This document shows, one piece after another, positions 14,322 to 56,160 of a stretch of DNA of 64,000 bases (position 1 is its first letter; every line of letters starts with the position of its first letter). The stretch is from Manis javanica. Its lineage: Eukaryota; Chordata; Mammalia; Pholidota; Manidae. The translations under genes and the position numbers were made by a program. Below the pieces are notes generated by a model. The model was not told the origin of the DNA, searched no databases, and saw nothing but the letters and a program-made list of their open reading frames with translations. Location of the stretch: NCBI RefSeq assembly GCF_040802235.1, contig NC_133174.1:107575647-107639646 (forward strand), written 5' to 3'.

Positions 14322-14365
14322 CCAGATAAAACTGCCTCCCAGAGATATAGGTTAGTCTACAAAGT
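14322..14365 (+). repeat. Donor copy of a 44-bp exact duplication
   Basis: The 44 bases starting CCAGATAAAACTGCC and ending TCTACAAAGT occur again, identical, at 15059-15102. This copy sits in otherwise unassigned intron. Confidence 0.95.
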
Positions 14366-14904: not shown

Positions 14905-15150
14905 ATTATTAGTGAATGCTTTTTATGTACCAGGAACTCTAATCACTTTCCATATGGTAGCTCATTTAATACATGTAACACCACCATGAGGCAGGCACTG
15001 TTATTACCTCTATTTTACTAATAAAAAAATTGAGGTACAGAAAGGTTAAGTAACTTGCCCAGATAAAACTGCCTCCCAGAGATATAGGTTAGTCTACAAA
15101 GTCCCATTGCTAGCAAGTGGTAGAGAATGGAGGTTTGAAACTTGTTGTGA
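14905..15150 (-). repeat. MIR with an inserted 44-bp patch
   Basis: Reverse MIR core with TTGAGGTACAGAAAGGTTAAG and AACTTGCCC. Where a MIR should continue AAGGTCACACAGCTAG, the sequence carries the 44-bp duplicate (15059-15102), then resumes with GCTAGCAAGTGGTAGAG. Confidence 0.85.
15059..15102 (+). repeat. Recipient copy of the 44-bp duplication
   Basis: Identical over 44 bases to 14322-14365, in the same orientation, 737 bases away. It replaces about 10 bases of the MIR, with no poly(A) tract or target-site duplication. Confidence 0.95.
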
Positions 15151-43948: not shown

Positions 43949-44905
43949 CGTGGTGTAGTGGATAGATGCACGGACTCTTGAGACAGCTGGCCTAGATCTG
44001 AATCCAGACTCTGCTACTGACCAGCTATGTGATATTAACTTCCCTGTGAACCTCAGGTCCCTCATTTTTAAATGGGAATAATATCGATATCATAAAGCTA
44101 TTATGAGGATTAAGAGTAGGCCGGTACTCGTATTTTTAAGTTTATTGGGGTATGATTCACACACTATAAAATTTACCTACTCCAAGTATATGACTCAATT
44201 ATGTTTAGTAAATTTCCAGAGTTGTACAACCATTATGACCCACTTTTTGAGCATTCCCATCAACTCAAAAAGAGTGGTGCCCGTCTGCAATCTCTCCTCT
44301 TTCCCAGCTCCAGCCCCATGTCTTGCCAATGGGTTTCAGCCCTGGGCAAGTTCGCTATGGAGTCAGTGTGACCAAAGAAAATGACAGCAAAATGTTCCTG
44401 GGGTGAAAGGGTTATACCCAACTTTATTTCCAGGTGGCAGGCAGTCACTAAAATCCCATTCACTCAGAGCGAGTCTGCATGCAGCAAGCCGGTCTCTGCC
44501 TCTGGGCCCCTCTGTCCACACTGCTGTCCTACACAGCTGTTCTCTGGGCCTCTCTGCACAGTCGTCCCGCACAGCCGTCCTCTGGGCCTCTCTGCACAGC
44601 CGTCCCGCACAGCCATCCTCTGGGCCTCTGTCCTTGGCACTGCCACCACTCGAGCCTCTGCTCCGCTCTCCTGCAGCCTTGCAGCCCTGCCACTGTGGGG
44701 CGCCCAGAGCACCGGGCGGGGCTCTTTACACAGAGTCAACAGCTGTCTATTGCCCACAGGTGTGCAGTGAGAGAGTCAACCAGGGCCAGGTGAGAATCCT
44801 GGCAACAGGAACTTTCATTTTATCCACACCCCACAATAAAATAATGAGTTAATATTTGTAAAGCACTTAGGATAATGCCTGCCATCTACAAAGATGTATG
44901 TTTGT
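43949..44905 (+). repeat. MIR interrupted by L1 and LTR
   Basis: The MIR head and core (43949-44116, CACGGACTCTTGAGACAGCT to ATTATGAGGATTAAGAG) continues at 44835-44905 (AATGAGTTAATATTTGTAAAG). In between lie a minus-strand L1 3' fragment (about 44125-44318) and a complete solo LTR (44319-44828). Confidence 0.75.
44319..44828 (-). mobile_element. Solo LTR, copy A
   Basis: Read on the minus strand it begins TGTGGATAAAATG, ends GGCAAGACA, and is flanked by the exact 5-base repeat CCCCA (plus-strand 44314-44318 and 44829-44833). It has a degraded TATA region (GTGTAAAGAG) and an AATAAA signal (44423-44428). A 38-base unit (GGCCCAGAGG... ending TGTGCAGA) is tandemly repeated around 44512-44640. 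Frames across it on both strands are repeat artefacts. Confidence 0.92.
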
Positions 44906-45543: not shown

Positions 45544-46036
45544 TGTGCATAAGATGAGAGTTCCTGTGGCCAGATTTCTCACCTGGCCGTGGTTGACTAG
45601 CTCACTGCACACCTGTGGGCAACACATGGCTGTTGACCCTATAAAAAGAGCTCTGCCCAGTGCTCTGGGAGCGCCACGGTGGCAAGGCTGCAAGGCTGCA
45701 GGAGAGCAGAGGCTGGAGTGGTGGCAACGCCAAGGACAGAGGCCCAGAGGACGGCTGTGCGGGACGACTGTGCAGAGAGGTCCGGTGGACGGCTGTATGG
45801 GACAACTGTACAGAGAGGCCCAGAGGATGGCTGTGCGGACAGAGAGGCCCAGAGGCAGAGACCAGCTTGCTGCATGCAGACTGGCTCTGAATGAACGGGA
45901 TTTTAGTGACTGACCTGCCACCTGGAAGTAAAGTTGGGTATAACCCTTTCACCCCAAGACCGTTCTGCTGTCATTTTCTTTGGTCACACTGAATCCACAG
46001 CGAACTTGCCCGGGGCCGAAACCCATTGGCAAGACA
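45544..46036 (+). mobile_element. Solo LTR, copy B
   Basis: Same family as copy A in the opposite orientation: begins TGTGCATAAGATGAG and ends GGCAAGACA. Flanks are AGTAT and AGTGT (five bases, one mismatch). It keeps a TATAAAAAG box at 45640-45648, but its poly(A) signal is changed to AGTAAA (927-932 of the 45 kb block). It carries fewer 38-base units than copy A. Confidence 0.92.
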
Positions 46037-50639: not shown

Positions 50640-50756
<117 letters not shown>

Positions 50757-51201
50757 TTATCAGTGAACCCCAAAGTACCAATAACCTAGCTTCACCAACC
50801 ATCAACACATCGTCAGTTCTGACTCATCGAGATCTTCTCCTATCTCACTGCCCAATACACACCCGGTGTTCTTTTGCATTGATTCCAAATATATAATTTA
50901 CTCTGTAATTATCTCAACTTCAACAATTATTTTTACTTTGTAAATGTTTTTTAGAATGGCTTATTCTAATCTATCATCCTGAAGACAGAAAGGAAATAGA
51001 CCTGGGGTTTTTAATGAACTTTAATGCAAACGTACATGTTTATGGGCATTTTTCCAAAGAGAGAGTTAAGTACCTTTGCCTGCCATTCAAACGGCTCTGT
51101 GAATCAAGATGTTCGAGAGATTTAGACTTTAGAAGAAAAGACAGGTAGTGGTTCTTTTTCTCTTTGCCTTTGAACTACCAATTCCGAAATCGTGGCAATA
51201 A

Positions 51202-51203
<2 letters not shown>

Positions 51204-51271
<68 letters not shown>
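51204..51271 (+). repeat. (CA)34 microsatellite
   Basis: A pure CA/TG run of 34 units. Poly-His and Poly-Cys/Val frames across it are not genes. Confidence 0.98.
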
Positions 51272-51274
<3 letters not shown>

Positions 51275-52119
51275 GTTAAAAACAAAACAACAGGCCTCAA
51301 AAATGGAGCTGCTGATGCTAAGCCCCATGTCACCAAACCAAGACTTAGTTTCTGCTCTCTCAGAAATGGAATCTTAAACTAATCAATCAGAAATAAACTG
51401 ATCAGCACTAGCACTAATCTTGATAGAGCCCTGCCATCCCCTAAAGGAAAGTAACTTTGCAATAACCAACTGCTCTTCACTGCCTAATATAAACTTCCCT
51501 GTTCCCACTCACTTTTGCCTATAAAAGTCTTTCACTTTGTACAGCGCTCCTTGGGGCTCCTTTCTACTCTGCTAGACTGGATACTGCTTTATTCAAATGG
51601 ATTCTCATTCAAATAAAATGTTTTAACATGCCTCAGTGTATCTTTTAACAACATACCCACACACAGAACTATTTCAGATATAAAAATCCATCCGTGGAAC
51701 TGATCCCATATACTCTTTTCACCTGTATCTTTATTTCCAACATGCCCACTTACTGAGATTTTTTTAAAAAAGAAAGAAAATATTGCCACCACTTCAATTT
51801 CCATTCCTTTTTAATGCTAGTTGTAGAACTAATGGTGTCAGCAGGCCCTTCCCTAAATGGAAGACTCTTGCGGGTATCACAAAAGTAGGCAAATGTCAGC
51901 ATTGCCAACCCAGTTCAAGCCTCTGCAAGACAGGGAAGTTAGACTAGGCAATGTTGACTCTATGCGGGGGTGGGGGATGGGGGTGGGGATTTTGACTTTA
52001 CTTCCAGTTGTTTCTAAGACCCTGAGTATTGATAGGTTTCACTGATTATGCAATACTGATCAAGAAAAGTGCTAAAATAGAATCAAACTAGATTTGTTTA
52101 AAAACAAAGTGAGTGAGGA
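51272..52119. other. Unassigned intronic sequence
   Basis: Sequence between the microsatellite and the CpG-rich leader. A G-rich GGGGTGGGGGATGGGGGTGGGG run lies at about 51966-51987; nothing else is recognised. Confidence 0.5.
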
Positions 52120-52517
52120 CTTCAGGTGCATCCACCGGTTCCTCCCACTGCCCCCGCGATACCTTTCCGCTTGGAGAAGCCCGAGGTCTCCCAGAAGTCA
52201 CTGGGTTTCCTGTCTCTCCTCAAGCACACCGGCAGGCGCCAGCTTCCTTCAAGTGCCGGCTTTCCCCACCAAGAAAAGCCTGGTGCCTCCTGTTCACCAA
52301 AACCTGCAGAACCTTCAGGCGATCCCTGAGCACCTGAGCACCCTGCCCGACCCTGGGACCTGAGGCAGCTTCATAGAAGGTCTGTAAAAGGGGTGAAGGT
52401 TTCTTCCCTGCCGCGGCTCCGCTCTATAGTCAGGGGCTCCTCCGCCATTTTTCTGGGCGGTACGTTCGCAAGCCACGCGGTCTCAACTGTTCCAAATCCC
52501 ATATCCGTTGAGACACA
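52120..52517 (+). promoter_or_regulatory. CpG-rich leader/promoter of the CtIP-like gene
   Basis: About 400 bases upstream of the ATG hold roughly 20 CpG dinucleotides, in a region otherwise nearly devoid of them, with motifs such as GCCGCGG and GGGCGG. No TATA box is evident. All three plus frames stay open for about 70-90 codons, as expected in GC-rich DNA, so I treat it as promoter and 5' UTR rather than coding. It could also act as a bidirectional promoter. Confidence 0.5.
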
Positions 52518-53843
52518 ATGGAGGCAAGGGACAGGGGTGGAGACGACAGTAGAGATGTGAAGAAACCTCCACAAAGAGGTGAAATGCAAGTAACGGTATG
52601 TGACGTGACATCTAACAATTTCGAAGAAACCTGGCGGAAATTAAAAGAGGTCCATGACAAAAATCTACACCGTTTGCACACAAAATTAACCAGTTTGATG
52701 AAAGAGCAAGCGACAAAAGCAAGGGCACGCTACAAAGCCAAAATCAAAAGACTGACTGTACAACAGCAAGTTTTCAAAGAAATCATTCGTGACTTACGAG
52801 ATCGGTTAAATGCAAAAAAATGTAACTTCTGTACAATGAATGAAACACAGAGGAATACACTGCAGCAAGAATTTCATAATATCCAAGAAAAAAATACTGG
52901 GCTGATTGCTAAGCTGACTGCAAAAAGGGATAAATTAAAAGAAGAAAATGAAAGACTTCATGAAAAACTAAAACTGTATCAGCCACACCTTCATGCTTCG
53001 TTTTCTGACAGCGATGATGACTCCGATTCTGATACTCAAATCGCTGTACCGGTTAGAGCGCTTTCCTCAGGCCAGACGCTTACATCTGGAACTCAGGGGC
53101 ACCTGCCTGTCAAACTGGTACAGCAACCAAATACTGAAAAGGTGGTGTCCGGAGGAAAAATGGAAGTGCAACACAGTTCAAACTCTCCAATTCCTTTTGA
53201 TAGTTGGGACCTCTTTGGGGTGCCAGAGACGCCCTTTGAAACGACATCCTCTAATACCAGGAAGCCTGCCTCAGGAGGCAGTGCCAACCAGCAGTCAACC
53301 AGAGATTCTCCTTCAACATTTACACTTCGTCCTCAAAGGGAGTATGGGCTTCAAGGGGTCTCCCACTTGCCAAAGGTCAAGCTCAGCCAGTCTGAAAGGA
53401 AACAGATCTCCACACAAGGTGAAATACAGACTGACTTCTCTTGGAGCCTTTCCAGTATTTCTAGTGGAAGCCTAGAGCTCTTATCAGAAGAAAACCCAAC
53501 TATTCTAGTATCGGAAACTTCAGAGGAAGATACACGTGGTTCTGATAGAAGGACACGTCCTCCTTCACAAGAGGCAAAGCCCTCTTTAACTGCATTTCCT
53601 TTTGACTCTACTTTGAAATCTAGTGGGAAAAGATCAACGATTGGTGACAGTCAACACAACATTGGGCTTTCGGTGAGAGATGGCAGTTACCAGAAACCTT
53701 CCAGTGAACAATCAGCTCTGAGGGAGAAGACTGATGAATCTGCAGGTGCACAGTGTGATGCTGATAAACCTCAAGGGGATACCCAAACTTTCAACGTGAG
53801 GTATTCATTAAAGAGAAAAGCCAAGTCACAGTCACAGAGGTAA
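52518..53843 (+). CDS. CtIP/RBBP8 N-terminal-like protein, intronless, nested antisense
   Basis: A 441-codon open frame inside a DOCK10 intron on the opposite strand. The ATG has a strong Kozak context (ACAATGG). Residues 35-155 form a charged coiled coil whose layout matches CtIP residues about 20-140: FEETWRKLKEVHDK, then a CNFC pair at Cys102/Cys105 matching the CtIP zinc CxxC, then LQQEFHNIQEKNTGLI and LKEENERLHEKL. In CtIP this part forms the tetramer used in DNA double-strand-break resection with MRE11-RAD50-NBS1. An acidic Ser/Asp run follows at 162-172, then a Ser/Thr-rich disordered region and a basic end. Nine SQ/TQ sites (173, 192, 290, 299, 350, 378, 422, 437, 439) suggest ATM/ATR-type phosphorylation. 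The CtIP C-terminal Sae2-like domain is absent. I do not recognise a named gene. It may be an old retrogene with kept coding capacity, or a recent relic that is still open. Confidence 0.8.
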   Translation: MEARDRGGDDSRDVKKPPQRGEMQVTVCDVTSNNFEETWRKLKEVHDKNLHRLHTKLTSLMKEQATKARARYKAKIKRLTVQQQVFKEIIRDLRDRLNAKKCNFCTMNETQRNTLQQEFHNIQEKNTGLIAKLTAKRDKLKEENERLHEKLKLYQPHLHASFSDSDDDSDSDTQIAVPVRALSSGQTLTSGTQGHLPVKLVQQPNTEKVVSGGKMEVQHSSNSPIPFDSWDLFGVPETPFETTSSNTRKPASGGSANQQSTRDSPSTFTLRPQREYGLQGVSHLPKVKLSQSERKQISTQGEIQTDFSWSLSSISSGSLELLSEENPTILVSETSEEDTRGSDRRTRPPSQEAKPSLTAFPFDSTLKSSGKRSTIGDSQHNIGLSVRDGSYQKPSSEQSALREKTDESAGAQCDADKPQGDTQTFNVRYSLKRKAKSQSQR

Positions 53844-53943
53844 AAGTAACTTTCCCTCACCTCTTTTCTTCTACAAGAGGACAGTCTTCCTATCAGTTTG
53901 GACTGTGTAACTGATCATCTTTGACTCTTATTCTATTTCTCAG
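53840..53943 (+). other. Possible 104-bp intron across the stop codon
   Basis: The stop TAA lies inside AGAG|GTAAAAGT, a good donor. At 53921-53943 a pyrimidine-rich stretch ends TTTCTCAG|GA. Removing this piece would give AGG ATA TAA, adding one Ile before a new stop. Spliced and unspliced products would therefore be almost identical. Confidence 0.35.
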
Positions 53944-54290
53944 GATATAACAGGCAATACGACATAAAAAAGCCTGGCAAATGACTAAGACTTTGAAACA
54001 GTGAATTACTGCCAGTTAAAACAACTACAAACAGAAGGAAATTCATTCTTCAGAATCCATCCATTTCCATATGAAAGTATAAAGTCTGCCATCGTTGTTG
54101 AAAATAAGTTCCTACTGTTGATAAACCAATAAAGAAGAAAACCAAGAAAAGACCTGAAGGTTGTGGACTTTTGTAAGAGTTCACCATTTAAATGCCTACA
54201 GAGTGACTAAAATATTTACTGCACAAGACAGCTGTACAATATATCCATTGAGAAGGATCCAGAAGCAGATGCTTTTTCACAATAAAGTGG
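53844..54290 (+). other. 3' UTR and poly(A) signals of the CtIP-like gene
   Basis: Two AATAAA hexamers follow the stop, at 54128-54133 and 54281-54286. A GT-rich stretch at about 54565-54600 could act as a downstream element for the second. I see no unambiguous poly(A) tract with target duplications to prove retroposition; an A-rich run at 55287-55316 is a weak candidate. Confidence 0.4.
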
Positions 54291-54739
54291 CTGTTGTAAC
54301 TTTACACTTATCATACAACATGCCTTCATATATACAAGAAAGAGACTGTATACAAGTTACGAAAAATGTGCTTCTAAAAATCAAAAAGCAAGAATAGAAG
54401 AAAGAAAAACCTAATGAACAAACATCAAATATTTAGCAAGCAAGATTGACATTTACAAGAGGAGGAGGAAGTTTGAAATTCTCAAGAAACGAAGTTCTGG
54501 TTTTACCCATGACATCAAACAAAGCAGCCAGAGACTTCTCACAGCGTGCAGAGTTTTCGTATACAAGTGTGTGCGTGTGTGTGCACGTGTGTGTGTTAGA
54601 GTGGAGAACTAGTCAGTGATGCATCTCCCATTTTTTTCCTTTTCTCTCTCCCTCCCCCATCCTCCTTTCTCTGGGCTGTGGTGGTATTCACTATTTTTTT
54701 GTTTTCCTTTTTTTTCCCCCATGTGCCTCTTGGGTCTTT

Positions 54740-54950
54740 TCTTTTTTTTTTTAACTTATTGAGTGAACTTATGTACCATGAAACTCACCCATTTTATTAA
54801 GAGTGCACAATACAACAGTTTATAGTACAAAGAGTTGTAATGCCATCACTACAGTCTTAGAATATTTTCATCACCCTTAAAAGAAACCATACATATTAGC
54901 AGTCCCTTCCATCCACATTTCCCCACTTTCACCTTGTAGGGTGACAAAAA
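54740..54950 (-). mobile_element. Old L1 3' UTR fragment
   Basis: AAACTCACCCATTTTATTAAG and TTTTCATCACCCTTAAAAG match the reverse of an old L1 3' UTR block, the same kind found at 44125-44318. Confidence 0.65.

Positions 54951-56160
<1,210 letters not shown>

Follow-up and report, generated by a model that had tools for sequence, protein, structure and literature searches.

An intact and conserved RBBP8 (CtIP) retrogene very probably lies within DOCK11

A long open frame running antisense through an intron of a DOCK gene raises the questions of what it descends from, whether it is still used as a gene, and what its protein would do beside the CtIP that it resembles. The frame lies in a 64,000-nucleotide stretch of Manis javanica DNA (the window), for which an initial annotation had proposed a possibly undescribed CtIP-like gene nested in DOCK10. 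The frame and its immediate surroundings are as follows.

52518..53843 (+): single-exon ORF, taken from its open frame and its homologues as a retrogene of the N-terminal half of CtIP
52300..52599 (+): CpG-enriched leader and start region, a candidate promoter or 5' UTR by its CpG content and the ATG-free stretch 52300-52517
54128..54286 (+): candidate polyadenylation signals, AATAAA hexamers at 54128 and 54281

The frame is uninterrupted over 441 codons plus the stop codon, exactly as first described. When the window was shuffled 20 times with its dinucleotides preserved, the longest ATG frames were 91-179 aa, and this maximum of 179 aa rules out a chance ORF. The strong Kozak start (A at -3 and G at +4) was confirmed as well, and so was the CpG-rich leader, where two sections covering 52300-52599 have CpG observed/expected ratios of 0.65 and 0.84 against 0.20 across the whole window. 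A scan of 52300-52517, upstream of the ORF, found no ATG, and Rfam (at the gathering threshold) and tRNA scans gave no matches.

The host gene was identified by mapping DOCK exons on the opposite strand.

50708..55976 (-): DOCK11 intron of 5269 bp with the ORF antisense within it (exon mapping, splice sites by eye)
55977..56088 (-): DOCK11 exon upstream of this intron, matched part ending in MISE (exon mapping)
50640..50707 (-): DOCK11 exon downstream of this intron, matched part beginning with DTLLTYWNK (exon mapping)

The antisense nesting in a DOCK intron had been recognized correctly, with the ORF inside 50708-55976; the gene named, DOCK10, was the wrong one. Against human DOCK9, a minus-strand exon at 10.9 kb scores 67.5 bits, and against DOCK10 it scores 50.6 bits; the host is therefore not the DOCK10 orthologue, since such an orthologue would not match DOCK9 better. 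A provisional DOCK11 C-terminal sequence maps to the minus strand throughout, as 21 ordered pieces that descend from 59094 to 3889. When the window exons were joined and searched, Dedicator of cytokinesis 11 was the best among the named rows in the best 120 of 155 matches; in the same set, DOCK11 matched with 84% identity over 100% of the query in a rail and 96% over 70% in the marmoset, and human DOCK10 with 59% over 71%. These three results rule out DOCK10 as the host. The homologues of the ORF from a sheep hybrid, the dog and the clouded leopard sit on contigs of 145.9, 127.1 and 128.5 Mb, respectively, sizes that we take to be compatible with X chromosomes. DOCK11 of sheep is X-chromosomal (PMC9126029, partial text). 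Two repeats were also observed on this stretch. Within the DOCK11 gene there is an imperfect inverted repeat (44319-44828 and 45544-46036) whose arms of ~0.5 kb are 85-93% complementary in their main pieces, each contain a 38-bp tandem repeat and are separated by a spacer of ~0.7 kb, and an exact 44-nt direct repeat occurs at 14322-14365 and 15059-15102, 737 bp apart.

In the N-terminal third of the ORF protein, the following features were placed.

52620..52973 (+): CtIP_N domain at residues 35-152, in which two long helices flank a CxxC hinge (Pfam PF10482, 4.4e-19; AlphaFold)
52614..52658 (+): residues 33-47, counterpart of the CtIP tetramerization motif 18-32 (alignment of 29 sequences)
52821..52832 (+): CxxC, residues 102-105, counterpart of the CtIP zinc ligands C89 and C92 (kept in 27 of 29 sequences)

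A Pfam search matched the full CtIP_N profile at residues 35-152 with an E-value of 4.4e-19, bearing out the CtIP N-terminal coiled coil with its CxxC that had been read from the sequence, and SAE2 (PF08573) was absent from the Pfam families found in the ORF protein, in agreement with the lack of a Sae2-like C-terminal domain noted at the outset. CtIP chains in the PDB match the protein by sequence (7bgf, 1.7e-10; 4d2h, 0.005). The AlphaFold model places the CxxC loop between helices 33-100 and 109-157 and is confident in the coiled coil alone (mean pLDDT 51.6); Foldseek with this model gave no PDB match.

The relation to CtIP extends beyond this domain, and the description as a CtIP-like gene, right about the N-terminal domain, was incomplete in missing an RBBP8 retrocopy whose homology continues past the stop codon. 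Without any intron, the ORF follows CtIP collinearly from residue 16 to about 456, and a frameshift-tolerant alignment of the locus places CtIP 16-717 on 52608-54421, again intronless, with the ORF-tail part of that alignment standing without a shuffle control. Since the human CtIP gene is split into 19 exons that span 93 kb (PMC3188555, partial text), an intronless and collinear copy points to a processed retrocopy. In the tail of the ORF, the majority consensus of the homologue family, searched against CtIP 146-480, is collinear with CtIP 153-456 at a score of 146, which none of 500 shuffles reached (mean 68.7, best 109). Single tails match CtIP more weakly, only five of 29 members having no shuffle of 200 as high (seven of 200 for the window copy), and CtIP did not stand out from shuffles in searches with profiles built from the tail alone. 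Past the stop codon, the alignment continues into a degraded segment.

54034..54421 (+): decayed remnant of CtIP 579-717 with three frameshifts and two in-frame stops (frameshift-tolerant alignment)

This remnant scores 104, where the best of 300 shuffles reached 64 and the best of 102 segments taken elsewhere in the window, on either strand, reached 55. Its pieces 579-640 and 686-717, for which the CtIP letters are provisional, each outscore every one of 200 shuffles and 102 segments. Piece 641-685, with letters confirmed by a PDB chain, is at chance level when taken alone (109 of 200 shuffles scored as high, as did 54 of 102 segments), yet lies at the expected place. Further downstream, CtIP 718-897, which holds the Sae2 domain, was searched for and found at chance level only (83 of 200 shuffles reached its score, and so did 37 of 102 segments). 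A homology confined to the N-terminal domain is rejected, as both the tail consensus and the post-stop remnant match CtIP.

From this sequence evidence, we conclude that the ORF and the remnant are an old processed retrocopy of RBBP8. The paralogue RBBP8NL (RBBP8 N-terminal like), which we take to carry the CtIP N-terminal domain without a Sae2 domain, could have been the parent instead, given that domain in common. This parentage is highly improbable, in that the collinear matches to CtIP 153-456 and 579-717 reach past the N-terminal domain and support an RBBP8 origin. A search for a target-site duplication, in the form of any 10-20-base word common to 52001-52520 and 54401-54800, found none, as is expected because the copy is old. 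No poly-A tail was assigned at the retrocopy, the end of which is an A-rich stretch; as a speculation, internal priming on the mRNA at this stretch could have lost the Sae2 domain at birth.

A retrocopy may be no more than a relic, and we therefore asked what has become of it in other genomes. Homologue searches found 29 proteins (P0002-P0030) of 331-453 residues, 28 of them 402-453 aa long and one (P0030) 331 aa. P0002 equals the window protein except for V81I and was left out as near-identical from the alignment of 29 sequences, which comprises P0001 and P0003-P0030. PF10482 is present in 29/29 homologues, and in a 19-member alignment (A1) CtIP_N was found in all 19 and SAE2 in none at E up to 0.1; as a positive control, the same profile library detects SAE2 in a provisional human CtIP sequence. 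Five homologues carry organism names (dog, clouded leopard, fin whale, a sheep hybrid and Pyrenean desman), and no primate or rodent is among these five. Dog and sheep belong to Laurasiatheria. The clouded leopard, fin whale and Pyrenean desman are placed in the same group by taxonomy look-up. Most homologues lie on contigs of 1.4-4.7 kb, and such contigs are not in themselves proof of transcripts.

The two closest relatives, at 90% and 83% identity, have an intact ORF, so that the disruption in close relatives that could have marked a dead copy was not seen. On the locus alignment of CtIP 16-717 with 52608-54421, five lesions were counted in the 388 nt of the remnant and none in the 1326 nt of the ORF, a split with a chance of ~4e-8 at equal rates. 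These counts, together with 29 homologues, make it quite improbable that the locus is a pseudogene or a non-coding antisense transcript whose frame is open through chance or recent origin, even though evolution in the family is fast, with members 30-91% identical to the window copy, and P0030 has only 331 aa, as one would expect of such a relic. The similar intact copies in several mammals suggest, as far as sequence can tell, that the truncated protein is still used. We hold it very likely that an intact and conserved RBBP8 retrogene resides in DOCK11, and the retrogene is real and probably functional.

The family has entered databases under other names. The entries 'DNA endonuclease RBBP8-like' of dog and Neofelis nebulosa and 'DNA endonuclease RBBP8' of Galemys pyrenaicus, 436-445 aa long, belong to the same family, and their names presumably stem from automatic annotation. 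The retrogene family appears in no paper among the matches listed in the literature search, and RBBP8, DOCK11 and CtIP are absent from the main text of a dog retrogene paper (PMC6802060). The initial wording of 'undescribed' thus stands for the literature searched and falls for the databases, where the automatic RBBP8(-like) names exist for dog, clouded leopard and desman.

To see which parts of CtIP the family has kept, we compared it position by position with the parent. In the counterpart of the tetramerization motif, the equivalents of CtIP F20, W24, L27, K28 and D32 are invariant in 29/29 sequences (the L27 equivalent being L42), that of H31 is kept in 28 and those of E29 and K21 in 25 each. 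At S18, D22, L23, T25 and C30, five of the 15 motif positions, no member shares the residue of CtIP, and taken whole the motif has no special likeness to CtIP, with 16 of 123 equal-length windows, the motif itself included, scoring as high. The CxxC is retained in 27 of the 29 sequences, the window copy among them. In the coiled coil, segments of residues 33-145 show the CtIP residue in 34-49% of members on average, and where CtIP has 39 hydrophobic positions in the aligned region, the family majority is hydrophobic at 30. CtIP further carries an LxCxE motif that binds Rb, a PLDLS motif that binds CtBP and an S327-P-V-F motif that binds BRCA1. The tail of the family has the following features in this region and near the C-terminus.

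53004..53021 (+): acidic SDSDDD, residues 163-168 (conservation rank 11 of 279 tail windows)
53511..53528 (+): SETSEE, residues 332-337, a conserved block beside the aligned place of CtIP S327-P-V-F
53811..53822 (+): KRKA by the C-terminus, roughly collinear with CtIP SKRKK, a possible nuclear localisation signal (KRK kept in 24 of 29)

LxCxE and PLDLS were each found in 0/29 aligned sequences, and the family consensus at the SDSDDD block aligns with CtIP LECEED, the site of the LxCxE motif. An S..F pattern inside residues 300-350 occurs in five of 29 members and is absent in the window copy. In the consensus alignment, the CtIP SPVF letters drop into a gap beside the family's SETSEE, around which residues 331-338 have a mean pairwise identity of 0.82 (rank 2 of 277 tail windows). 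KRK lies among the last 30 residues in 24 of 29 members, and [ST]Q stands at 173-174 in 23 of 29. The retrogene is hence like human CtIP/RBBP8 in its tetramer-motif residues, CxxC hinge, coiled coil and collinear middle to about 456, and unlike it in being intronless, in lacking LxCxE and PLDLS (0/29) and in having a C-terminal half that is absent or decayed, with no Sae2 domain found. By descent it belongs to the CtIP family, yet its architecture is not that of a working CtIP.

These features suggest how the retrogene may act. An ancient RBBP8 retrocopy inserted antisense in a DOCK11 intron and was probably retained as a protein-coding gene. The surviving ORF corresponds to about CtIP 1-456, taking in the tetramerization helix, the coiled coil with the zinc hinge at its CxxC, and some of the disordered middle; the remaining CtIP frame decayed or was never copied, leaving the protein without the DNA-binding, MRN-interacting Sae2 domain. 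Such a truncated protein would build dimers and tetramers of the CtIP type, either by itself or together with CtIP, and mixed tetramers would carry fewer Sae2 domains, so that MRN-CtIP resection might be lowered or retuned wherever the gene is expressed. Precedents from truncated and disrupted CtIP are consistent with this. The L27E substitution abolishes CtIP tetramers and leaves CtIP deficient in homologous recombination (PMC8205527, partial text), CtIP without the residues past 782 or 608 tetramerises and loses efficient DNA binding (PMC11317151, partial text), truncated CtIP of Seckel-2 is dominant negative (PMC3188555, partial text), and a stapled peptide of the tetramer motif inhibits CtIP (PMC7895427, partial text). 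The retrogene resembles the truncated CtIP of Seckel-2 and Jawad syndromes in its C-terminal truncation with the oligomerization half retained (PMC3188555 and PMC11317151, partial texts) and differs from those variants, which are mutations of RBBP8 itself, in being a separate gene in several species. Because of the truncated-CtIP precedents, a protein with the tetramer half alone would most likely form CtIP-type tetramers without Sae2 and damp or retune resection. We put the probability of this CtIP-mixing mechanism, in which the retrogene has been kept as a natural equivalent of CtIP truncated at its C-terminus and its protein joins or mimics CtIP tetramers, at roughly 45%.

The same retrogene might instead form homotetramers only, as an independent scaffold on which SETSEE, SDSDDD and TQ recruit phospho-binding partners such as NBS1, with no mixing with CtIP. 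The absence of LxCxE and PLDLS in 29/29, the family-specific SETSEE block at rank 2 of 277, the [ST]Q at 173-174 in 23 of 29 and a coiled coil far from that of CtIP (CtIP residue in 34-49% of members over 33-145) would all fit such a scaffold; the five invariant tetramer-motif residues are all those of CtIP, however, so that mixing would be possible, and we regard this alternative as plausible but doubtful. In the opposite direction, the protein could recruit CtIP positively, as CtIP 1-296 does when tethered to a break. A CtIP 1-296-Cas9 fusion suffices to stimulate homology-directed repair rather than block it, and its authors speculate that endogenous CtIP is recruited (PMC5859065, partial text); the ORF covers the equivalent region. 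CtIP 1-296 requires the CDK sites S233, T245 and S276 for this effect (PMC5859065, partial text), whereas the retrogene tail is much diverged, and recruitment of this kind is unlikely. For the truncated-CtIP reading itself, the Cas9-tethered result means that the effect on resection may go in either direction (PMC5859065, partial text).

Where the gene would be expressed is a matter of conjecture, and given X linkage and the habits of retrogenes our guess is the male germ line. Conditional loss of mouse Ctip in the testis depletes germ cells (PMC12453631, partial text). A bolder and rather unlikely extension is that many placental mammals carry an X-linked, germline-expressed retrocopy acting as a natural dominant-negative CtIP that tunes meiotic or premeiotic DNA-end resection; if so, lineages that perhaps lack the retrogene would regulate resection without a natural dominant-negative. 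How a cell processes broken DNA ends depends partly on CtIP, and a separate gene made of the assembly half only, with key tetramer residues frozen amid fast change, would let CtIP dosage be studied as a natural experiment and would give species-specific regulation of DNA-end resection.

Several lineages of the family depart from the common pattern. First, P0018 and P0019, the latter from the sheep hybrid, have lost the second Cys of the CxxC and the KRKA tail, and these losses suggest a relaxed or changed function in their lineage. Second, a separate clade of P0020, P0028, P0029 and P0030 is without about 11-12 coiled-coil residues before the CxxC. Third, the clade of P0001, P0003 and P0004 has a long stem branch of 0.53-0.65, in the N-terminal domain too, which we read as accelerated evolution in the lineage of the window copy.
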